From: Bacillota bacterium
GTDB lineage: Bacteria; Bacillota; Clostridia; Christensenellales; QALW01
Length of the DNA: 38,731 bases
Direction of reading: 5' to 3'
NCBI GenBank assembly: GCA_029007865.1
Contig: JAQXIQ010000141.1
Span: forward strand, 1 to 38,731
The notes beneath the pieces are model-generated. The model was not told the origin of the DNA. It did not search any database and saw nothing but the letters and a program-made list of their open reading frames with translations. The position numbers and the translations under genes are program-made. This document shows, one piece after another, positions 3,798 to 30,463 of the stretch. Numbering within the stretch: the first letter of the stretch is position 1; every line of letters begins with the position of its first letter.

Positions 3798-3909
3798 AAA
3801 AATACGATAAAAAATGCGCAAAAAAAGCGCAAAAAAAGCGCAAAAAAACGCTTAAAAATGCGCAAAAAACGCTTAAAAATGCGTTAAAAAAAGCGCAAAA
3901 AATGCGCTT
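3798..3909. repeat. Phased A-tract array, 11-bp period
   Basis: Ten A-tracts of 5-7 nt begin at 3798, 3809, 3820, 3831, 3842, 3854, 3864, 3875, 3886 and 3897. The spacing is 11,11,11,11,12,10,11,11,11, with GCGC, CGCTT or TGCG between tracts. A-tracts in phase with the helix curve DNA, so this stretch is predicted to be strongly bent. Read on the minus strand it forms several hairpin-plus-T-run units. It lies between two convergent operons. Short antisense reading frames here are low-complexity and not credible genes. Confidence 0.85.
3886..3909 (-). terminator. Minus-strand terminator of the hydrogenase-like/PHP operon
   Basis: On the minus strand AAGCGCA (3909-3903) pairs with TGCGCTT (3897-3891) around a T-rich loop and is followed by T5 (3890-3886). 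A second, weaker hairpin AACGC/GCGTT with a T run lies at 3885-3864, so the array may act as tandem terminators. Confidence 0.7.
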
Positions 3910-3953: not shown

Positions 3954-4658
3954 TTATTTGCCCGAGATATAGGCCAGAAATGCCTCCGCGCTGCATTCGG
4001 GCAGGTCTAACTCCTGCTGCCGCTCCAGTATGGCGCCCAGGTCGTGCGCGTCGGAGGAGGACAGCACCCGCATGCGCGGATCGTACTGGGAAAAGCCGTT
4101 TGCCATTCCAAGGGGCGATACTTCCACGCAGCGGACATTCAGGTGCGGGTTGATAAAGCCCAGTATCGGTATTATGCCGTGGCTGGGCCGGTCGATGTGA
4201 GCCGGAACGGCGACTCCTCCGAATTGCCGGACAAGCTCAAAGCCCTCCTCAAGAGAGAGGCTCAGAGGGGAGAGCAAAAGCCGCGGCTCGGTGCGCACAG
4301 GCTCATCGTTTTCGTCAAGCACCGTCTGTTCTCCGAAAAAGCGCGGGTTGTTCTCTATAGGGGGCAAAAACGAATAGGCTGCGTCCGAGAACTTCATGGC
4401 GGCCTCAAGGGACGGGAAATATGCCAGGGTATGTACTTCCTCCGCGGTCTCCAGCTCCATGCCGGGTATAACCGTTATTCCGGCGCGACGAGCCGCACAA
4501 AATACTGCGGGCAGATTCGCGCAGGTGTTGTGGTCGGTAACCGATATTATATCCAGACCTTTAAGCATTGCCATGTTGACAATGTTATTGGGAGTCATAA
4601 GCTCGTCTCCGCAGGGAGAAAGGCATGAATGGATATGCAGGTCGGCATAAAGAAGCAT
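3954..4658 (-). CDS. PHP-domain phosphoesterase
   Basis: Cytoplasmic metal-dependent phosphoesterase of the PHP superfamily (TrpH/YciV-like size class). Visible metal-ligand motifs are DLHIHS (His8, His10), TDHN (Asp42, His43), GMELE (Glu68), PAHIDRPS (His154) and SSDAHD (Asp203, His205), so the active site looks complete. Its 234 residues form essentially one domain. The ATG directly abuts the TAA of the upstream DRTGG gene, indicating translational coupling. It is the last gene of the operon. Its substrate is unknown; nucleotide or nucleic-acid phosphoester hydrolysis is typical of relatives. Confidence 0.85.
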   Translation of the reverse strand: MLLYADLHIHSCLSPCGDELMTPNNIVNMAMLKGLDIISVTDHNTCANLPAVFCAARRAGITVIPGMELETAEEVHTLAYFPSLEAAMKFSDAAYSFLPPIENNPRFFGEQTVLDENDEPVRTEPRLLLSPLSLSLEEGFELVRQFGGVAVPAHIDRPSHGIIPILGFINPHLNVRCVEVSPLGMANGFSQYDPRMRVLSSSDAHDLGAILERQQELDLPECSAEAFLAYISGK

Positions 4659-4991
4659 TTATTCCACTCCGTTTTTATACATAAGTCCGCATATACTGTA
4701 TGCACTCATGGGGCTGGAAAGCACGGTAATGTTCTCCTGGATGGCTTTTTCAAGGGGAGCTCCCTCCATTTTGATGCCTTCGGGCAGTACGATGCAGGAA
4801 ATGTCATGCAGGGCGGCAACGGCAACTACATTAAGATGAGTCTGCACGGTTACCCAGGCCATACCGGCCTTTCCGCCCGCCATAACCCAGGAAAGCAGGT
4901 CGCAAACCATACCGGAGGTTATTTCACGCTCTCCGGCCTCTCCGCTGAGTACCGAAGCGTTTATAAGTTCTTTAAGCTCGTTGACAGTCAT
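4659..4991 (-). CDS. DRTGG-like domain protein (downstream copy)
   Basis: A 110-residue single-domain protein resembling the DRTGG fold found alone or in regulatory regions of other proteins. It is a paralogue of the 117-residue protein encoded at 6984-7337: both share the pattern ELK/EIK...INAS.LxGE near the N-terminus, a central TGLTNAHV-like or VQTHLNVV segment, and a final YxxCGxxYxxG. AAAGGAG with a 7-nt spacer supports the ATG, and this ribosome binding site lies in the end of the hydrogenase-like gene. Ligand and function are unknown; it may sense a nucleotide or partner within the operon. Confidence 0.75.
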   Translation of the reverse strand: MTVNELKELINASVLSGEAGEREITSGMVCDLLSWVMAGGKAGMAWVTVQTHLNVVAVAALHDISCIVLPEGIKMEGAPLEKAIQENITVLSSPMSAYSICGLMYKNGVE

Positions 4992-4993
4992 TG

Positions 4994-6307
4994 TTATTCT
5001 CCTTTGAATGTGTTGTTTTTGTGTTCCGCATCGGAAAGACTGCGGTATTGCTCTTTCAGTTTATATATACAGTCGATTTCGCTGGAATAGCCTCTTACTA
5101 TGTCCTCGGCCTGGCAGCGGCAGGTGGGACTGCCGCAGGAGCCGCAGTCAAGGCCGGGCAGATCGGCTTCTATTTCGTCTATACGCTCCATCATGCTCAG
5201 CGCCTTGCGGAAATCCGTGTCCAGCTTCAGCACCGGATTGGGGGGCAGAATATAATCAAAACGCAGCGCGTCGGTATCGTCCAGATGTACGCCGGAGCGG
5301 TAGGTCTGGCGGTCCTCCCTGGACATCTCTTCACACAGCTTATGCAGACGCATTTTGGCTATATAGCTGTATTCAAATACCAGCGGCCCGCCTACGCAGC
5401 CCCCGGTACAGGCAAGCCCTTCAAAAAAGTCTATTTCGCTCAGGCGCCCGTCCTCAATTGCCTCCAGGGCTTTTATAACATTGTGTACGCCGTCCACGGC
5501 CAGGTAGTTCTCGGTGCCTACCTGATTTGCCTCGCCGCCGCTGGAAGCCCAGCCCACGCCGCCGGAGAGCCCTATGCGTGCCTGGTTAAAGCCTGCGCCG
5601 CTTTTTGCCTCCCTGTTTATGGCCGCCGCAAGCGGACCGTAAAGCTCCATCATGGACAGCACTCCGTCTATACCGGAGGTGTGGTTGCCCAGGGGCGATA
5701 TCTTGGCCGTCATTTTTGCGGGGCAGGGGGATATAAAGAAAATGCCTATATCCTTTAGGTTACAGCCCCATTTTTCGCAGAAGCTGCGCCTGGCCAGCAG
5801 GGCGGCTGCCTCAACCGGCGGGCGCAGAGGGACTATGTTTTCCCGTAATGCCGGAAAGCGCACCTGGATAAGCCGCATTATTGCGGGGCAGGCGGAGGAT
5901 ATAAGGGGCTTCCGGACGCCGCCCTGCTGCAGCATGCGGCGTATATGCTGGGATAGCACATCGGCGCCTACGCTGGTTTCATAAACGCCGTCAAAGCCCA
6001 GGGAGCGCAGAGCGGAAAAAACCTGGGTTATGCTTTTAAGCCCCTTAAACTGCCCGTACAGAGTGGGAGCAGGCAAGGCCACGCTGTATTTATAGCGCTT
6101 TATGTCGGACAGAGAATCCGTCATGGCGATTTTGGCATGGTGAGGACAAACGCGTATGCACTCTCCGCAATCGATGCAGCGCTCCTTAATTATGCGCGCT
6201 TTTCCGTCGCGTACGCGTATTGCTTCGGTAGGACAGCGTTTAAGGCAGCTTGTGCAGCCCGTACATTTATCCTTATCCAGTGTTACCGAATGGTAGTACT
6301 GAGACAT
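4994..6307 (-). CDS. [FeFe]-hydrogenase-like H-cluster domain protein, probably sensory/non-catalytic
   Basis: Residues 1-60 form a 2x[4Fe-4S] ferredoxin domain (Cys15/18/21/25 and 44/47/50/54). The H-cluster domain follows, with ligand cysteines Cys140 (SSACP), Cys195 (SPCPAK), Cys300 and Cys304 (LACTGGC). A C-terminal Fe-S motif (Cys388, 391, 396, 413) resembles the CGSCGxPTC domain. In catalytic enzymes the first motif is TSCCP, the second MPCxxKxxE. Here the proton-shuttle Cys is Ala139, the Met is Ser193 and the Glu of the proton path is Ala201, while Lys198 is kept. That points to the sensory or uncharacterised groups (C/D) rather than a H2-producing enzyme. AAAGGAG precedes the ATG. 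The neighbours are an anti-sigma-type ATPase and DRTGG and PHP proteins. Confidence 0.85.
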   Translation of the reverse strand: MSQYYHSVTLDKDKCTGCTSCLKRCPTEAIRVRDGKARIIKERCIDCGECIRVCPHHAKIAMTDSLSDIKRYKYSVALPAPTLYGQFKGLKSITQVFSALRSLGFDGVYETSVGADVLSQHIRRMLQQGGVRKPLISSACPAIMRLIQVRFPALRENIVPLRPPVEAAALLARRSFCEKWGCNLKDIGIFFISPCPAKMTAKISPLGNHTSGIDGVLSMMELYGPLAAAINREAKSGAGFNQARIGLSGGVGWASSGGEANQVGTENYLAVDGVHNVIKALEAIEDGRLSEIDFFEGLACTGGCVGGPLVFEYSYIAKMRLHKLCEEMSREDRQTYRSGVHLDDTDALRFDYILPPNPVLKLDTDFRKALSMMERIDEIEADLPGLDCGSCGSPTCRCQAEDIVRGYSSEIDCIYKLKEQYRSLSDAEHKNNTFKGE

Positions 6308-6396
6308 CTGACATGCTCCTTTCGCGGTTATTGAGCATCCGGCAATTGCGGTGCGCAGCCGTCAGCCTTTGCGGCGCGGCTGCGGAGTGTACTGTT

Positions 6397-6822
6397 TCAG
6401 GCGATATTTATACGCATTACTATGGTGGTGCCGCCGGGGGCGGACTCTATTGTGAAGGAATCCGAATGCCGCTTCATGTTGGGGAGCCCCATTCCGGCGC
6501 CGAACCCCATTTCCCGTATGGAATCGCTGGCGGTAGACCAACCTTCCTTCATGGCAAGGGATATATCCTTTATTCCGGGGCCGCGGTCGTTGGAAGTGAT
6601 AACGATTTCGGCAGGGGAAACCTCAAGACACATTGTGCCGCCCAGAGAATGTATGATCAGATTTATCTCGCATTCGTAAGCCACTACCGAAGCATGGCGT
6701 ATTTTGTCGGAATCCACTCCAAGCTGTTTAAGGACGCGCTTTATCTTTGCGCTGGCTTCACCGGCGCGGACAAAATCGTCCTTTTCCACCGGATATACTT
6801 CACGGTACAGAAGCTCGCTCAT
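6397..6822 (-). CDS. Anti-sigma-factor-type ATP-binding protein (HATPase, RsbW-like)
   Basis: Single GHKL ATPase domain of about 141 residues. Visible boxes are the N-box ECEINLIIHS, the G1-box DRGPGI and the G2-box GFGAGMGLPNMK, all intact. Relatives phosphorylate anti-anti-sigma factors or bind sigma factors; no such partner gene is in this window. I chose ATG 6822 because GGAG lies 6 nt upstream; an in-frame ATG four codons earlier (6834) lacks a good ribosome binding site. It lies between a DRTGG gene and the hydrogenase-like gene, so it may relay the redox state sensed by the latter. That link is inference. Confidence 0.82.
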   Translation of the reverse strand: MSELLYREVYPVEKDDFVRAGEASAKIKRVLKQLGVDSDKIRHASVVAYECEINLIIHSLGGTMCLEVSPAEIVITSNDRGPGIKDISLAMKEGWSTASDSIREMGFGAGMGLPNMKRHSDSFTIESAPGGTTIVMRINIA

Positions 6823-6917
6823 ATCAATCTCCATTCCGCCGCCGACTGGAAGAACAGCCGTATAGATCTCCGACGGCGGCAGGACGGAGAAGTATGCTGC
6901 GTTCCGGCTTGCTGTAC

Positions 6918-6973
6918 GTATGTACGGCCGGGTATGTATGGCCGGGTATGTACGGTCGGGTATGTACGGATCG
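6918..6973. repeat. Four tandem 14-bp repeats in an operon-internal gap
   Basis: Unit GTATGTACGGCCGG occurs at 6918-6931, 6932-6945, 6946-6959 and 6960-6973 with a few substitutions (the last copy is the most divergent). It sits in the non-coding gap between the upstream DRTGG gene (ends 6984) and the ATPase gene (starts 6822), the only sizeable gap (161 bp) in this operon. It does not look like CRISPR because there are no spacers. Confidence 0.85.
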
Positions 6974-6983
6974 CGGTACCGGG

Positions 6984-7337
6984 TTATACGGCCTCGTTCT
7001 TGCCGGGCAGGCCGTGGGCATACAGCTTTCCGCAGGCTTCATAAAGAGTGCAGTCGGTGCTCAGCACCGCGAGCCCCAGCTCCCGGGCCAGCTCCAGGGC
7101 ATCCTGTGGAGGCTGCTTGCCGCGTACAAATACGACGCATACCACATCCAGCATTTCGCTTGTGCGTATCACATGGGCGTTGGTAAGCCCGGTAAGCAGA
7201 CACATACGCTCCTTGGGAAAGGCCAGCACATCGCTCATCAGGTCGCATCCGCAGCCGGCCATGCAGTCGGCTTCCTGCTTGTCCTCACCGCAAAGAAAAG
7301 AGGCGTTCAGAATGGCTTTGATTTCCTTTATCTTCAC
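6984..7337 (-). CDS. DRTGG-like domain protein (upstream copy)
   Basis: A 117-residue paralogue of the 110-residue protein encoded at 4659-4991. I chose the GTG at 7337 because GGAGG precedes it with a 7-nt spacer; a TTG ten codons earlier is possible but lies across the ribosome binding site. It is Cys-rich in the middle (DCMAGCGCDLMSD) and has TGLTNAHVIRTSEM and YEACGKLYAHG. It starts 13 nt after the SPOR-domain gene stop, so it is in the same operon. Its function is unknown; such domains frequently accompany [FeFe]-hydrogenase gene clusters in Clostridia. Confidence 0.75.
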   Translation of the reverse strand: MKIKEIKAILNASFLCGEDKQEADCMAGCGCDLMSDVLAFPKERMCLLTGLTNAHVIRTSEMLDVVCVVFVRGKQPPQDALELARELGLAVLSTDCTLYEACGKLYAHGLPGKNEAV

Positions 7338-7350
7338 TGTGTTTCCTCCG

Positions 7351-8175
7351 CTAAGACAGATTTTCAATCATATCGCGGTACGCGATAATCATTTCAATAT
7401 AATTATACTTTATATCGGAGAAAAAATCCAGCCCCTCTTTGCTGTTTTTTATGGAAATATTGTTTAGCTGAAGGCGGGCGTTGCGGTAAACGGTGAGCAG
7501 CCGGGGGATAAGCTCCTCGTCGGGGGAGTATGGCAGTGACTCCAGGCCTGCTATAATCTCCTCAACTGCGGTAAGCCTGTAGGTGTAGTTTATACGCACC
7601 TGGGAGGCGGTTATCTCGCAGCTGTCCAGCAAAACCGATTCCTCCATAAGGTCTTTGACAAGAGCAGGGTAATAATCACAGGCCTCCAGCAGGATATCAA
7701 GCTGTTCTTTGCTGCACTGCAGCTTAAAGGAAATGCTGCCGCTGGAGAGCATATAAACGGAGGGCGAAAATTCCTTGTCCGTCTGTTTATCCGCTACGGA
7801 CTGAGCCTCGGCCTGAGTCAGGTATCCTGCCGCGATTACGCGGTATGAGTCCTGATTAAGCACATATCCCGCGCCTCCGCGCTGGGCGATTGTTTTGGCT
7901 TCGGCGGCGGCCGGCGCGGCATCGGTATGGCTGCCAAGCTGCAGAAGGTATACATCCAGCCTGGGCAGGGTTATGCGGCCGTTTGTCCGGTCGTCCGGCA
8001 TAGGCGTAACCGCAGGCGGTGCCGAGCCGAAAAGAGGCATCAGTATATTGTCGGATATAGCCCGGCCTATACCGCTTATAAGCAGTATGGCGACGGTCAG
8101 GGCCAGCGCGACGGTGATCACGGCGACCTTTCTGTTATTTTGGAAACCTTTTGCCGGAGCGAAGTGTTTTGCCAT
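7351..8175 (-). CDS. Membrane-anchored SPOR-domain protein
   Basis: A 274-residue protein with a short cytoplasmic tail, one transmembrane helix (about residues 17-40) and an extracellular part. Residues about 73-130 (DVYLLQLGSHTDAAPAAAEA, then GYVLNQDSYRVIAAGYLTQ) match the SPOR fold, which in other bacteria binds denuded peptidoglycan at septa or cortex. The remaining ~140 residues are helical with no recognised domain. AAAGGA lies 10 nt before the ATG. It is the first gene of the hydrogenase-like operon and is divergent from the DUF6062 gene. A role in cell wall or sporulation is possible but not shown. Confidence 0.75.
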   Translation of the reverse strand: MAKHFAPAKGFQNNRKVAVITVALALTVAILLISGIGRAISDNILMPLFGSAPPAVTPMPDDRTNGRITLPRLDVYLLQLGSHTDAAPAAAEAKTIAQRGGAGYVLNQDSYRVIAAGYLTQAEAQSVADKQTDKEFSPSVYMLSSGSISFKLQCSKEQLDILLEACDYYPALVKDLMEESVLLDSCEITASQVRINYTYRLTAVEEIIAGLESLPYSPDEELIPRLLTVYRNARLQLNNISIKNSKEGLDFFSDIKYNYIEMIIAYRDMIENLS

Positions 8176-8314: not shown

Positions 8315-9073
8315 ATGGCTTATAAAATAGAGACCATTTCGGTTTATGAAGCTTTTGAGCAGCACTGTGCCTGCCCGCTGTGCGCACTCAGAGACAAGCT
8401 TGAGGCGGATTATACCGAGTATTATCTGGGTAATGCGGCAATGCTTCCGGAAATAAGGGTAGAGGTCAACAAAAACGGCTTTTGCGGCAGACACCTTGAT
8501 ATGCTTTATGAGGCGGGCAACCGTCTTCCGCTTGCCCTGCAAATGCATACGATGCTGTCAGAGCATAACAAAAGGAGCGCAAAAGCCATGCGGGATTATG
8601 CTGCAAAGTGCGCATCGCGTTCCGGTAAGGCGGCGCAGGCGTCTCTTGACAGGCTGGAGCAGACACTCCGGGAAAATGAGCACAGCTGTCTTGTGTGCCG
8701 GAGTACCCGGGATAACATGGAGCGGTATATTCAGACCGCGGTGAGACTGTATTTTGACGAGAGCAGGTTCCGGAAGCTTTACGAAAACTGTTCAGGGTTT
8801 TGCAACGGTCACCTTGTACAGCTTTTGCGCAGCGCAGAAAAAGTGTGCTCCAGGGCCGAGAACGAGCGGTTTGTGAACAGGACACTGCTGCTGCAGCAGC
8901 AATCGCGGGAAAAACTGGCGGGGGAGCTGGAGCATTTTACAAAAATGTTTGACTACCGCAGCCGCGGACAGGAGTGGGGGGAAAGCCGTACCGCCGTTGC
9001 AAGGACGGCGCAGCTTTTCGGAGGAGACACCAGAGCCGAGCGTTCCGGCAATGGCGGCAAGGAAGACAAATAA
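8315..9073 (+). CDS. DUF6062 family protein with duplicated Cys/His motifs
   Basis: A 252-residue soluble protein of a Clostridia-typical family without known function. It holds two similar modules: CPLC (Cys20, Cys23) followed by GFCGRHL (Cys57, His60), and CLVC (Cys125, Cys128) followed by GFCNGHL (Cys163, His166). Each set of three Cys plus one His could hold zinc or an Fe-S cluster, suggesting internal duplication. The C-terminal ~45 residues are polar and probably disordered. GGAGGAG precedes the ATG. The MazG gene follows after 68 nt on the same strand. Confidence 0.8.
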   Translation: MAYKIETISVYEAFEQHCACPLCALRDKLEADYTEYYLGNAAMLPEIRVEVNKNGFCGRHLDMLYEAGNRLPLALQMHTMLSEHNKRSAKAMRDYAAKCASRSGKAAQASLDRLEQTLRENEHSCLVCRSTRDNMERYIQTAVRLYFDESRFRKLYENCSGFCNGHLVQLLRSAEKVCSRAENERFVNRTLLLQQQSREKLAGELEHFTKMFDYRSRGQEWGESRTAVARTAQLFGGDTRAERSGNGGKEDK

Positions 9074-24052: not shown

Positions 24053-25531
24053 ATGGAGGGCTTCGATCTGTATAAGGATATCGCTCAGAGAACCGGAGGC
24101 GATATATACATAGGAGTTGTCGGGCCGGTACGCACGGGCAAATCCACCTTTATCAAAAGATTCATGGATCTGCTGGTACTGCCCAATATCGAAAACGAAT
24201 TTGTCAAAACGCGGGCGGTGGATGAACTCCCGCAGAGCGGCTCGGGACGCACGATTATGACCACGCAGCCCAAGTTTGTACCAAATGAGGCGGTTAAGCT
24301 CAGGCTGTCGGACAGAGCCGAGCTGAGCGTGCGGCTGGTGGACTGCGTGGGGTATCTGGCACAGGGGGTTCTGGGGCATCTGGAAAACGAGGCTCCACGT
24401 ATGGTGCGCACGCCCTGGAGCCAGGAGGAAATGCCCTTTGAGCAGGCGGCGGAGCTGGGCACGCGCAAGGTCATAGCGGAGCATTCCACCATAGGCATTG
24501 TGGTTACTACCGACGGCAGCATTACGGGCATGCCGCGCTCGGCGTATACCGAGGCGGAGGAGAGAGTAATAAATGAGCTTAAAGACCTGGGCAAGCCCTT
24601 TACGGTGGTGCTCAACAGTACGGACCTGTACAGTATGGATACACAGCGGCTCATAATGCAGTTGGAGGAAAAGTATTCGGTGCCGGTGGTGGGCATGGAT
24701 GTGCTTAACATGACGCAGGACGATCTGTCCGGCCTGCTGGAGAGGGTGCTGTATGAGTTTCCGCTCAGGTGTATAGAAATAGAACTGCCGCGCTGGGTGC
24801 AGGCTCTGCCCCGGGATCACGAAATTGTGACCGGACTGCTGGAAGCGCTTGCCGGAGCGCAGAAGCAGGAGAAAATGCGGGATTACCCGCTGCTGCTGGA
24901 TGCCTTTGACGCCATGGAGGACACCGTAAAGAGCTTTGATGTGGTAAAGGTGCTGCCCGGTGAGGGCAAAATATGCTATGAGCTTACCGTGGTTCCGGAG
25001 CTGTTTTACAGGGTGCTGGGGCAGGAGTGCGGCTGTGAGATCAAGGGGGATTTTCATCTGATATCCATTATACGGGATCTTATTCAGGCTAAGCGTGAGT
25101 ATGACCGTATCGCCCCGGCGCTTGAGGCGGCGCAGTCTACGGGCTACGGCGTGGTGATGCCGTCCATGGAGGATATGGTGCTGGAGGAGCCCGAGATGGT
25201 AAAGCAGGGCGGAAGATACGGCGTAAAGCTAAAGGCCAGCGCGCCCAGTCTGCACCTGATACGGGTGGACATCAAGACCGAGGTCAGCCCCATCGTAGGC
25301 AGCGAGCAGCAGAGCGAGGAAATGGTAAAGTATATGCTCTCCGGCTTTGAAAGCGATACATCCAAGATATGGGAGAGCAATCTGTTCGGCAAAAGTCTGC
25401 ATGAACTGGTTCAGGAGGGACTCTCCGGAAAGCTGGTGCGTATGCCGGCGGAGGCTCAGCGCAAAATGCAGCTGACCATTGAACGCATTGTAAACGAGGG
25501 CGGAGGCGGGCTTATATGCATATTGCTTTAG
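24053..25531 (+). CDS. spoIVA: Stage IV sporulation protein A
   Basis: A 492-residue cytoskeletal ATPase that polymerises on the forespore surface to form the spore coat basement layer. The P-loop GPVRTGKST is at residues 24-32, VDCVGYLAQG follows in the G-domain-like region, and the conserved C-terminus ends GGLICILL, as in Bacillus SpoIVA. Length and sequence are full-size for the family. GGGAGG precedes the ATG. The gene is single, with an own terminator. Its presence shows that the organism carries the endospore programme. The locus is not linked to other sporulation genes here. Confidence 0.97.
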   Translation: MEGFDLYKDIAQRTGGDIYIGVVGPVRTGKSTFIKRFMDLLVLPNIENEFVKTRAVDELPQSGSGRTIMTTQPKFVPNEAVKLRLSDRAELSVRLVDCVGYLAQGVLGHLENEAPRMVRTPWSQEEMPFEQAAELGTRKVIAEHSTIGIVVTTDGSITGMPRSAYTEAEERVINELKDLGKPFTVVLNSTDLYSMDTQRLIMQLEEKYSVPVVGMDVLNMTQDDLSGLLERVLYEFPLRCIEIELPRWVQALPRDHEIVTGLLEALAGAQKQEKMRDYPLLLDAFDAMEDTVKSFDVVKVLPGEGKICYELTVVPELFYRVLGQECGCEIKGDFHLISIIRDLIQAKREYDRIAPALEAAQSTGYGVVMPSMEDMVLEEPEMVKQGGRYGVKLKASAPSLHLIRVDIKTEVSPIVGSEQQSEEMVKYMLSGFESDTSKIWESNLFGKSLHELVQEGLSGKLVRMPAEAQRKMQLTIERIVNEGGGGLICILL

Positions 25532-26602: not shown

Positions 26603-27469
26603 ATGAAGATATCGGATATAATACAAAGCGGAAAACCCTGTCTTTCCTTTGAGGTGTTTCCGCCCAAAACATGGGACAATGTTGAGAAGGTCAAGGCTGC
26701 CTGCAGCGCGATAGCGGAATTAAAGCCCGATTATATGAGCGTTACATACGGGGCCGGGGGCGGCACCAGAGAGTATACGGCGGATATTGCATCGTTTTTG
26801 CTGGAAAAGGGGGTCACGCCTCTTGCTCACCTGAGCTGTGTGTATTCCGACAGGGAGGGGATACATGCGCAGTTAGCGGAACTGAAGGGGCGCGGCATAG
26901 AAAACATTCTGGCGCTGCGGGGGGATTTACCCAAGGAGGGATTGCACGGCGATTATAAATACGCCAGTGATCTGGCTGCGGATATTGCGGCCTTCGGAGG
27001 CTTCTGCATAGGCGGAGCGTGCTATCCGGAGAGTCATCCGGAAAGCCCGAACAGCGCCTTTGATATAGATATGCTTAAGCTTAAGGCGGACAGCGGATGT
27101 GAGTTTTTCACAACCCAGATGTTTTTTGATAATAATATTCTGTATAACTTTCTGTTCCGCCTGCTGCGCGCCGGAGTCAATGTGCCGGTGGTGGCCGGAA
27201 TAATGCCGGTGACCAATGTGCGCCAGATAAAGCGCATCTGCTCAATATCCGGAACGGCGCTTCCCCAGCGCTTCTGCCGCATTATGGACAGGTTTGCCGA
27301 TGACCCCGTCGCTCTGCGCCAGGCCGGCATTGCCTATGCAACCGAGCAGATAATAGACCTTTATGCAAACGGGGTACAGGCCGTGCATGTCTACTGCATG
27401 AATCAGCCCGACATTGCGCGCAGCATACATAACAATATTTCCGGTATAATCAAACGGGAGCCTGTATGA
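26603..27469 (+). CDS. metF: 5,10-methylenetetrahydrofolate reductase
   Basis: A 288-residue flavoprotein that reduces methylene-THF to methyl-THF, the methyl donor for methionine synthase. The family start SFEVFPPK carries catalytic Glu17; TYGAGGGTREYT, ILALRGD and TQMFFDN are further MetF motifs. An in-frame ATG 24 codons upstream exists at the promoter -10, so the start at 26603, with AAAAGGTG ahead of it, is correct. The stop overlaps the start of the next gene (ATGA). With the next two genes it forms a methionine operon. Confidence 0.96.
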   Translation: MKISDIIQSGKPCLSFEVFPPKTWDNVEKVKAACSAIAELKPDYMSVTYGAGGGTREYTADIASFLLEKGVTPLAHLSCVYSDREGIHAQLAELKGRGIENILALRGDLPKEGLHGDYKYASDLAADIAAFGGFCIGGACYPESHPESPNSAFDIDMLKLKADSGCEFFTTQMFFDNNILYNFLFRLLRAGVNVPVVAGIMPVTNVRQIKRICSISGTALPQRFCRIMDRFADDPVALRQAGIAYATEQIIDLYANGVQAVHVYCMNQPDIARSIHNNISGIIKREPV

Positions 27470-28062
27470 TTTTTAACGATGTAATATGCCGTACTGCGGA
27501 GACGGGCAGCATTGCCCCCGATAAAAACGAAATTGCGGCAAGGCTGGGGGTTCCGCGAGGATATCAGAACAATGCCATCGACCGATGCCTTGAGGAGCTG
27601 CAGCACAGCGCGGTATATAAATATGCCTATGCGCGCCTGCCGCTGCGGCTGCAGGACGGAATATGCGACCTGGATTTTGTCAAAGTGCGCAGCCGCGATC
27701 TGTATGCCAACCTTTCCAAGGGTGCCGGGTGCCGGGAGATAGTAGTGATGGCGGTTACTCTGGGGGCGGGCGTTGACAGACTGCTTGCCCGATGTGCCAC
27801 ACAAGGACAAAGCAAGCATTTTATTATGGATGCGCTGTCAAGCGCGGCAGCGGAAGTATTATGCGATTATGCGCAGTCGTGCATATGTGCGTCGGAATGC
27901 TGTCATCCAAGATATAGCCCTGGATACGGAGACCTTTCCATTGAGCTGCAGGCGCCGCTGCTTGAGCGGCTGAATGCCGGGCGGCTGCTGGGAATAACTC
28001 TTAACGGGGCGTTTCTGATGTCACCGGTAAAATCCGTAACCGCTATAATCGGACTGGAATAA
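27466..28062 (+). CDS. Free-standing methionine synthase activation-domain protein
   Basis: A 198-residue homologue of the C-terminal reactivation domain of MetH, which binds SAM and remethylates oxidised cob(II)alamin. The signature RYSPGYGDLSIELQAPLL followed by RLLGITLNGAFLMSPVKSVT is clear. The downstream MetH lacks this domain, so the two proteins together replace a full-length MetH. ATGA overlap with metF and GGGAG 5 nt upstream indicate translational coupling. This split arrangement is known in Clostridia and Thermotogae. Confidence 0.9.
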   Translation: MIFNDVICRTAETGSIAPDKNEIAARLGVPRGYQNNAIDRCLEELQHSAVYKYAYARLPLRLQDGICDLDFVKVRSRDLYANLSKGAGCREIVVMAVTLGAGVDRLLARCATQGQSKHFIMDALSSAAAEVLCDYAQSCICASECCHPRYSPGYGDLSIELQAPLLERLNAGRLLGITLNGAFLMSPVKSVTAIIGLE

Positions 28063-28075
28063 AGAGGTTTTTTAC

Positions 28076-30463
28076 ATGGGTATACTGGAACTTATAAATA
28101 AACGCAGGGTATATTTCGACGGGGCTATGGGCACGGTACTGCAGTCCATGGGGCTGAAGGCGGGCGCCTATCCGGAGCTGTGGAATCTGACAAGGCCGGA
28201 CGATATCGTGCGGGTACACTGTTCGTATCTGGAAGCGGGAAGCGATATAATAACGGCTAATACCTTCGGCGCGAATCCTCTGCGGTTTGAAAACTGGCAG
28301 GAGGTCATAGAGGCTGGAATAGGCTGTGCTCGCCGCGCTGTAGGAAGCCGGAGGGATAAATTCGTCGCATACGATATCGGTCCGTGCGGCAGGCTGCTGG
28401 CGCCTCTTGGAGAACTGGAGCCGGAAAAGGCGATAGAGCTGTTTGCGGCAGGAGTAAGGACGGCGGAGCAAAGCGGTGCGGATCTTATAATCATCGAGAC
28501 CATGAATGATTCCATGGAGACAAAGGCTGCGGTGCTTGCGGCAAAGGAAAACTGCTCGCTGCCTGTTTTTGTTGCCAATGTCTATGACGAATCCGGCACG
28601 CTTATGACGGGCGCCGACCCTCAGGCTATGGTTGCCATGCTGGAGGGACTGGGCGTTAACGCAATAGGAGTTAACTGCTCTCTTGGCCCGGATAAGATAG
28701 CCGGGGTAATCGGGGAATATATAAAGTATTCGTCTCTGCCTGTTATAGCCATGCCCAACGCCGGGCTGCCCGAGATAAAGGACGGCAAAAGCATTTTCGG
28801 CATGGAGGCCGAGGAATTTGCGGGCAGTATGGAGGAGCTTGCCTGCAAAGGGGTTTCCATTCTGGGCGGCTGCTGCGGTACCACTCCGGAGTATATCAAA
28901 AAAACCGTTGCGCACACGGCTTCTTTGCCGTATTCTGCGCCCCTGCGCAAGCAGCGGACGGTGATTTCCTCCTATACGCATGCGTTAGAGATAGGTTCGG
29001 AGCCGGTGATTATCGGCGAGAGAATAAATCCCACCGGAAAAAAGAAGCTGAAAGAGGCGCTCAGAAGCGGGGACACCGATTATATTCTGGGCGAGGCCAT
29101 AGCGCAGGGAGAGGCGGGGGCTCATGCGCTGGATGTCAATGTGGGGCTGCCCGAAATAGACGAGCCTGCGGTTCTGGAGCATTGCGTGCGCGCAATACAG
29201 GCGGTGTCCGACCTGCCGCTTCAGCTTGATACCTCGGACCCGGCGGCGCTGGCCCGCGCAATGAGAATTTATAACGGCAAGCCGCTTATAAACTCGGTTA
29301 ACGGCAAGGAACAGAGCATGCGGGAGGTTTTCCCGTTAGTAAAAAAATACGGCGGCGTTACCGTTGCGCTTACTCTGGACGAAAACGGTATACCGGACAG
29401 CGCGGAGGGGCGCTGCCTGATAGCGCAGCGCATAATTGAAACCGCGCGCAGCTACGGCATAGACAAGCAGGATATAATCGTGGACCCGCTGGCAATGGCC
29501 GTGTCCTCCGACAGCGCAAGCGCGGCGGTAACCCTGGAAACGGTGAAAATGCTGCATCAGGCGGGCATAAGAACCAGCCTCGGCGTATCCAATATCTCCT
29601 TCGGGCTGCCGCAGAGAGATGTTATAAATACTGTTTTTTACGCAAATGCTCTGGCCTGCGGGCTGGATTGCGCCATAATGAACCCGTTTTCCAAAGGAAT
29701 GATGTCGGTTTATTATGCCTTCCGTGCCCTTAACGGTATGGACAGAGCCTTTGCCGACTATATCGCTTTTGCTCAGGGAAATACCTTTGACAGCGGAAGC
29801 GTAAGCAGAGCCTCGGCGGCGATCGCCGGCGCAAATGCGGAGTCCCTCAAGGATGCTGTTATAAAAGGTCTTAAAGATGCCGCGATCCGTATAACAAAGG
29901 AACAACTCGGGTCGCGGGAGCCCCTTGATATAATCAATTCCGATATAATTCCGGCACTAAATGCCGTGGGAGAGGCTTTTGAGAGCAAGAGAGCATTCCT
30001 GCCGCAGCTGCTTATGTCTGCCGATGCGGCGTCTGCGGCGGTGGAGACGGCCAAGGAGCGTATGCCGGCGGTAAGCGCGGAAAGCGGAAAAGAGGTAATA
30101 TTGGCTACGGTCAGGGGCGATGTCCACGATATAGGCAAAAATATAGTCAAGGTGCTTCTGGAAAGCTACGGTTTTGCGGTGCATGACCTGGGCAAAGATG
30201 TGCCGCCCGAGACGGTGCTGGAATGCGCGCTTAATACCGGCTGCCGTGTGGTGGGGCTAAGCGCACTTATGACCACCACGGTGCCTGCCATGGAGGAAAC
30301 GATCCGGCTGCTCAAAAGCAAAATCCCCGGCGTTATAACCGTTGTGGGCGGCGCGGTGCTGAATCAGGAGTATGCCGATATGATAGGCGCGGATTATTAC
30401 TGCCGCGACGCGATGGATACCGTGCGGCTGGCACAGCGTATCTATGGCGAGGATGCATTATAG
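28076..30463 (+). CDS. metH: Cobalamin-dependent methionine synthase core (no activation domain)
   Basis: A 795-residue enzyme. Residues 1-285 are the homocysteine-binding barrel with zinc ligands Cys201, Cys266 and Cys267 (GVNCS, GGCCGTT). About 300-560 is the methyl-THF pterin-binding barrel (GERINPTGKKK, VNSVNGKE). About 575-670 is the cap region and about 675-795 the B12 domain with DVHDIG (His684, lower cobalt ligand) and GLSALMTTT. It transfers the methyl group from methyl-THF to homocysteine. The C-terminal activation domain is missing and is supplied by the preceding gene. The stretch to 30746 has no gene, only terminator-like hairpins. Confidence 0.94.
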   Translation: MGILELINKRRVYFDGAMGTVLQSMGLKAGAYPELWNLTRPDDIVRVHCSYLEAGSDIITANTFGANPLRFENWQEVIEAGIGCARRAVGSRRDKFVAYDIGPCGRLLAPLGELEPEKAIELFAAGVRTAEQSGADLIIIETMNDSMETKAAVLAAKENCSLPVFVANVYDESGTLMTGADPQAMVAMLEGLGVNAIGVNCSLGPDKIAGVIGEYIKYSSLPVIAMPNAGLPEIKDGKSIFGMEAEEFAGSMEELACKGVSILGGCCGTTPEYIKKTVAHTASLPYSAPLRKQRTVISSYTHALEIGSEPVIIGERINPTGKKKLKEALRSGDTDYILGEAIAQGEAGAHALDVNVGLPEIDEPAVLEHCVRAIQAVSDLPLQLDTSDPAALARAMRIYNGKPLINSVNGKEQSMREVFPLVKKYGGVTVALTLDENGIPDSAEGRCLIAQRIIETARSYGIDKQDIIVDPLAMAVSSDSASAAVTLETVKMLHQAGIRTSLGVSNISFGLPQRDVINTVFYANALACGLDCAIMNPFSKGMMSVYYAFRALNGMDRAFADYIAFAQGNTFDSGSVSRASAAIAGANAESLKDAVIKGLKDAAIRITKEQLGSREPLDIINSDIIPALNAVGEAFESKRAFLPQLLMSADAASAAVETAKERMPAVSAESGKEVILATVRGDVHDIGKNIVKVLLESYGFAVHDLGKDVPPETVLECALNTGCRVVGLSALMTTTVPAMEETIRLLKSKIPGVITVVGGAVLNQEYADMIGADYYCRDAMDTVRLAQRIYGEDAL

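Follow-up and report, generated by a model that had tools for sequence, protein, structure and literature searches.

The HydS operon and its partner genes

The window analysed here is a stretch of 38,731 nucleotides (contig JAQXIQ010000141.1) from a Bacillota bacterium of the order Christensenellales. Six co-directional genes on its minus strand encode, in that order, a SPOR-domain protein, a DRTGG protein (DRTGG-1), an RsbW-like ATPase, an [FeFe]-hydrogenase homologue named HydS, a second DRTGG protein (DRTGG-2) and a PHP-family enzyme (Table 1). The open reading frames of all six were present where the original prediction, which was made from the DNA alone, had placed them. It had also described the genes as tightly spaced and running in one direction; the direction was as described, but the spacing is only partly tight, with gaps of about 13, 150, 90, 2 and 0 bp in the order given. 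The listed open reading frame of DRTGG-1 starts at TTG 7367, but GTG 7337, which has a GGAGG ribosome site, is the likelier start, and the RsbW-like gene possibly starts at ATG 6822 instead. A 14-bp tandem repeat, GTATGTACGGCCGG, lies between these two genes. Directly behind the PHP gene, and between two convergent transcription units, an A- and GCGC-rich unit of 11 bp, AAAAAATGCGC, occurs nine times in tandem; this hairpin array is likely to be the end of the operon.

Table 1. Features of the HydS locus, other features of the window and further hydrogenase genes of the same genome
Feature	Position	Strand	Evidence
11-bp tandem array and overlapping terminator-like hairpins	3809..3907	-	directly behind PHP gene
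PHP-family metal-dependent phosphoesterase, 234 aa	3954..4658	-	Pfam PHP, 40.3 bits
DRTGG protein 2 (DRTGG-2), 110 aa	4659..4991	-	paralogy to DRTGG-1, orthologue matches, fold
HydS, group D (M2e) [FeFe]-hydrogenase homologue	4994..6307	-	Pfam, tree, residues, predicted fold
RsbW/SpoIIAB-like GHKL ATPase, 145 aa	6397..6834	-	HATPase_c_2, 32.5 bits
14-bp tandem repeat, 3.7 copies	6918..6969		
DRTGG protein 1 (DRTGG-1)	6984..7337	-	Pfam DRTGG, 21.0 bits; inspection of ribosome site
SPOR-domain protein, membrane-anchored, 274 aa	7351..8175	-	open reading frame; Pfam SPOR, 21.2 bits
DUF6062 gene	8315..9073	+	230 bits
SpoIVA gene, complete	24053..25531	+	377, 198 and 112 bits
Short open reading frame	27466..28062		no Pfam match
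Methionine synthase	28076..30463	+	Hcy, pterin and B12 domains
Group A6 hydrogenase	contig C17		NF040763, 921 bits
Group B1 hydrogenase	contig C103		TIGR04105, 562 bits
Group C homologue, cut by contig end	contig C100		tree

The partner proteins answered to their predicted families. The RsbW-like protein matched HATPase_c_2 and has an intact N box (ExxxN) and intact G boxes, and its GHKL motifs were 100% conserved in relatives, in agreement with the GHKL ATPase that had been proposed. It is like the anti-sigma kinases RsbW and SpoIIAB in its GHKL fold and intact ATP-binding motifs. However, its score against the SpoIIAB (anti-sigma F) equivalog model was only 41.7 bits, far under the cut-off of 135. 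The operon contains no sigma factor and no STAS partner or antagonist, which counts against the signalling reading proposed below. DRTGG-1 fell under the Pfam DRTGG cut-off of 25.2 bits, and DRTGG-2 had no Pfam match of its own. DRTGG-2 is 33% identical to DRTGG-1 (E 2e-18), however, 17 of 20 DRTGG-2 orthologues matched PF07085, and its predicted fold (pLDDT 95.6) gave a TM score of 0.81 to the DRTGG domain of Archaeoglobus AF1212 (2ioj) and of 0.78 to that of a Clostridium perfringens pyrophosphatase (3l31), confirming that the two are paralogous DRTGG proteins.

The PHP protein had been called complete-looking, and all of its metal ligands are indeed present; the D/H/E residues that make up the metal site in the six PHP motifs were kept in 26 of 26 homologues from the order. 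The invariance of these ligands and of the GHKL motifs shows that the partners are maintained as active proteins. The SPOR protein has a single N-terminal hydrophobic segment and a marginal Pfam match (cut-off 21 bits), as would be expected of the membrane SPOR protein that had been predicted. A role of the locus in anti-phage defence was rejected because PADLOC gave no relevant match.

Placement of HydS in group D

HydS matched Fe_hyd_lg_C in Pfam (108.5 bits), together with two N-terminal Fer4 (4Fe-4S) domains and a C-terminal 4Fe-4S domain (PF04060, residues 383-415) with cysteines C388, C391, C396 and C413; no PAS domain was matched in Pfam. Its predicted model had a pLDDT of 86.9, and the best-matching solved structures were [FeFe]-hydrogenases. 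In a tree of 78 proteins HydS fell, with 100% SH-aLRT support, into a clade of 49 that contains 48 other group D homologues and stands apart from groups A, B and C. The phylogenetic check that the original prediction had called for thus put HydS outside the catalytic group A. The group D clade includes a protein of Thermoanaerobacter wiegelii, on which the published positions of TamHydS, the group D protein of Thermoanaerobacter mathranii, landed on the expected residues in our alignment with no offset.

Every residue named in the original prediction was confirmed: the H-cluster cysteines C140, C195, C300 and C304 and K198 are retained, whereas positions 139, 193 and 201 are altered to Ala, Ser and Ala; in addition, position 298 is Leu. 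These losses had been taken as a sign of a non-catalytic protein, which was too strong. In TamHydS, Cys299 is replaced by Ala, Met353 by Ser and Met497 by Leu (PMC8163306, PMC10407848). A139, S193 and L298 of HydS correspond to A137, Ser and Leu of TamHydS, so that the substitutions are a group D signature, and on these grounds we also rejected the view that HydS is a degenerate catalytic enzyme. The group D proton path, which in TamHydS consists of E252, D265 and E289 with S249 (PMC10407848), is intact in HydS as E259, D272 and E296. The tree and these residues together identify HydS as a group D (M2e) [FeFe]-hydrogenase homologue.

The original prediction had HydS sensing H2 or redox state rather than turning over. 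The sensing part agrees with the view of others that group D hydrogenases are sensory, which is probably right; the part that denies turnover goes too far in view of the intact proton path; TamHydS turns over slowly, with an activity that is low but real (PMC10407848). The C-terminal cluster of TamHydS is unresponsive to H2 (PMC13104023), which we counted against the sensor reading proposed below. HydS and TamHydS have in common their domain order, the lack of a PAS domain, the A137/Ser/Leu signature, the proton path E252-S249-D265-E289 and the C-terminal 4Fe-4S domain.

Group C (M2f), represented by TmHydS, HfsB and the HydS of R. albus, resembles HydS in its proposed sensory role and in its C-terminal 4Fe-4S domain, and TmHydS carries the same Cys299-to-Ala exchange. 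However, group C proteins have a PAS domain and a phosphatase-like neighbour, whereas the window protein has neither and belongs to a separate clade, and membership of HydS in group C was therefore rejected. The L079 protein, in contrast to HydS, does have a PAS domain.

A gene neighbourhood conserved across Clostridia

We compared the locus with those of 27 other genomes of the order and with 80 loci from a second collection; the two sets share a few records. DRTGG-1, RsbW-like, HydS, DRTGG-2 and PHP recurred in this order, usually followed by a HydC-like gene, an HATPase, a 2Fe-2S protein, HydB and HydA; the three small genes before HydB were named from their position and from similarity to HydB. 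Counting only loci on contigs that were long enough, RsbW stood beside HydS in 78 of 78 other loci, DRTGG-1 in 69 of 72, DRTGG-2 in 65 of 70 and PHP in 60 of 65, and 36 of 62 had HydB inside the stretch that was fetched. The same gene order was found across Clostridia, including Thermoanaerobacter, Acetivibrio and Christensenella, confirming the conserved linkage of the RsbW-like, DRTGG and PHP genes. In 8 of 28 loci of the order (the window included) and in 9 of 69 named loci a SPOR homologue stood at this position; SPOR is the only lineage-variable gene of the set and is an optional head gene. A wiring peculiar to the window was rejected, since the module is conserved in about 100 loci.

The original prediction considered the wiring, especially with a SPOR protein at the head, to be undescribed. 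Group D genes had been reported to be linked to an HATPase and to group A hydrogenases (PMC8163306), and the HATPase and group A hydrogenase genes that neighbour TamHydS liken its locus to the module of the window. For the DRTGG, PHP and SPOR partners of a group D HydS we found no description in the literature, our coverage of which was incomplete. By its genes and their order, the operon belongs to a known clostridial group D module, which is widespread and better conserved than had been assumed. Group D hydrogenases have so far been studied as purified proteins, with no known signalling chain, and the near-invariant neighbours RsbW, DRTGG-1, DRTGG-2 and PHP are candidate signalling partners.

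The usual position of the module directly before hydCBA could also mean that HydS is an accessory of HydABC, or else a slow catalytic hydrogenase, for whose assembly or repair the RsbW-like, DRTGG and PHP proteins would serve. The low activity of TamHydS (PMC10407848) would agree with such a role. In the genome of the window, however, hydBA is not in the same operon, as it lies on another contig (C17), which separates the sensor module from the enzyme, and in several loci HydBA is divergent from the HydS module. Strict co-expression is thus not needed, and we consider an accessory or catalytic role very unlikely.

Upstream of the operon and divergent from it lies a DUF6062 gene. Among the sets examined, about 16 other loci have a DUF6062 homologue adjoining the HydS operon, and the gene may for this reason be part of the HydS module.

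Missing maturases and the cofactor of HydS

The genome of the window encodes four [FeFe]-hydrogenase homologues, one each of groups A6, B1, C and D. The window itself was said to lack a true catalytic hydrogenase, which is correct, the group A6 and B1 genes lying elsewhere in the genome. We searched this genome for the maturases and did not find HydG; for HydF there was nothing above the generic GTPase background, and for HydE nothing at E 1e-20 or better. A genome-wide search for hydABC and hydEFG, as suggested in the original prediction, returned hydBA with the group A6 enzyme but no hydEFG, an absence which that prediction had itself named as evidence against it. The absence weakens the reading of HydS as an H2 sensor and favours either redox sensing or an unknown maturation route. 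In a single genome that is 92% complete and in 153 contigs, such an absence would mean little.

All three maturases were, however, absent from 5 of 5 genomes of the family. Of 61 genomes of the order, 12 had HydG above the cut-off, 11 had HydF and 13 had HydE, nearly the same genomes each time, and 21 of the 28 genomes with a full-length HydS had no maturases. Several of these maturase-negative HydS genomes are assembled in contigs that are few and long (three in G038, five in G005, ten in G006 and in G059). We also sampled 198 genomes of the order, almost all of which are 95% complete or more. A group A enzyme was found in 176, HydG in 29 and both in 26; about 150 of the 176 group A-bearing genomes thus lack HydG, if it is assumed that neither of two unlisted negatives is HydG-positive. 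HydG was present in Christensenella hongkongensis and was not found in metagenome-assembled genomes such as those of Candidatus Limiplasma, Ventricola and Excrementavichristensenella; the loci of these named relatives point to Christensenellales as the order. Across the entire class, HydG was found in 188 of 293 genomes and in 109 of the 142 that bear HydS. T. wiegelii, the near relative of the TamHydS host, also encodes HydG and differs in this from the genome of the window. The maturase label changed at least three times on the starred branches of the HydS tree alone, so that the maturases were repeatedly lost or regained. Our incomplete coverage of the literature yielded no paper that deals with maturase-less hydrogenases in this order. 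What is new, beyond the positions covered by the original prediction, is that HydEFG is missing on a large scale where hydrogenase genes of groups A, B, C and D are intact.

The HydG proteins of the order fell into two score classes of about 710 and 930 bits, which divide G034, G056, G377, G387, G405 and G423 from the other HydG-positive genomes. This hints at separate origins or a horizontal gain of the maturases.

The maturase genes may have been missed by the assemblies through binning gaps, or be too divergent for the HydG, HydF and HydE models. Most of the genomes are drafts or bins, that of the window among them. On the other hand, three unrelated families vanish together, and do so also in genomes that are at least 95% complete and in few contigs; the same HydG search succeeded across most of the class, and in other genomes it picked up other radical-SAM enzymes at about 170-190 bits. 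We therefore put this third reading below both redox sensing and assembly of the [2Fe] site by another route, and judge it improbable.

We compared residues between maturase-negative and maturase-positive genomes. All four cysteines of the H-cluster and all three residues of the proton path were invariant in HydS from both (29 of 29 negative and 20 of 20 positive proteins), and loss of an H-cluster cysteine in maturase-negative genomes was not seen. The differences were confined to softer positions: in maturase-negative HydS the Met497 site is mostly Asn and not Leu, and the Glu361 site mostly Ala and not Ser, differences that may reflect ancestry. Group A motifs were identical in the two sets, and the group B enzymes of maturase-negative genomes retain the proton-shuttle cysteine. 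The group A motif TSCSPGW was rejected as a sign of inactivation, as it also occurs in maturase-positive genomes and in HydA1 of Acetobacterium woodii (7q4v). Such conservation would be easier to explain if the [2Fe] site were still made, and it counts against a HydS with [4Fe-4S] clusters only.

The hydrogenases of the order could accordingly be complete, their [2Fe] site being built without a recognisable HydE, HydF or HydG, and HydS would then be a genuine H2 sensor. The strict conservation of the H-cluster and proton-path residues regardless of the maturases speaks for this, as do the presence of groups A6, B1, C and D in one maturase-less genome and the large share of group A-bearing genomes without HydG. 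To our knowledge, however, HydEFG is the only route to the [2Fe] site, and no substitute maturation gene was recognised next to the hydrogenase loci, the neighbourhoods being where we searched. We regard a complete H-cluster in these proteins as rather unlikely, and the broader proposition, that most species of the order assemble working [FeFe]-hydrogenases, the HydS sensor included, without HydE, HydF and HydG, as unlikely.

Alternatively, the hydrogenase-like proteins of maturase-negative genomes may have been recruited to non-sensing roles with [4Fe-4S] clusters only. The eukaryotic hydrogenase-like protein Nar1/IOP1, which keeps the cysteines, has no [2Fe] site and acts in Fe-S delivery, is a precedent in principle, though neither kinase nor PHP genes are linked to it. 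HydABC would then be an NADH:ferredoxin bifurcator that works without H2, and HydS an accessory subunit for electron transfer or assembly. Recurrent absence of the maturases while HydS and HydABC are retained, with the changes on the HydS tree, is consistent with recruitment, and among the Archamoebae, which retain a HydB homologue, Entamoeba does so without maturases (PMC10711303). However, the motifs that are used only for H2 chemistry show no relaxation, and we hold recruitment to be quite unlikely.

The reading that we tentatively prefer is that the operon is a standard clostridial group D signalling module with HydS as a redox sensor that has only [4Fe-4S] clusters. As no HydEFG was found, HydS most likely carries [4Fe-4S] clusters alone, including the cubane of the H site, and would sense the poise of ferredoxin, rather than H2 by means of a complete H-cluster. 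We infer the cofactor content, the protein contacts, the direction of signalling and the targets, and with them every step after HydS, as follows. HydS would read the reduction state of the low-potential electron pool of the cell, and its conformation would control the RsbW-like ATPase or kinase; the two DRTGG proteins would be subunits that serve as partners or bind a ligand, with the PHP enzyme as a phosphoesterase of the same circuit. The output would most likely tune the electron-bifurcating HydABC hydrogenase and the fermentative flow. Relatives in group C provide a precedent for hydrogenase-type sensors that control fermentation (PMC5707799, PMC11837493), in that deletion of hfsB alters fermentation and adhE expression (PMC5707799). 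With intact hydrogenase genes so widely present without HydEFG, H2 metabolism that is predicted from hydrogenase genes alone may be misjudged in a large group of gut bacteria, or else there may be another route of H-cluster assembly.

Elsewhere in the window, a complete SpoIVA gene suggests that the organism forms endospores or descends from a recent endospore-forming ancestor. The methionine synthase has no activation domain, and a short open reading frame adjoins its gene.
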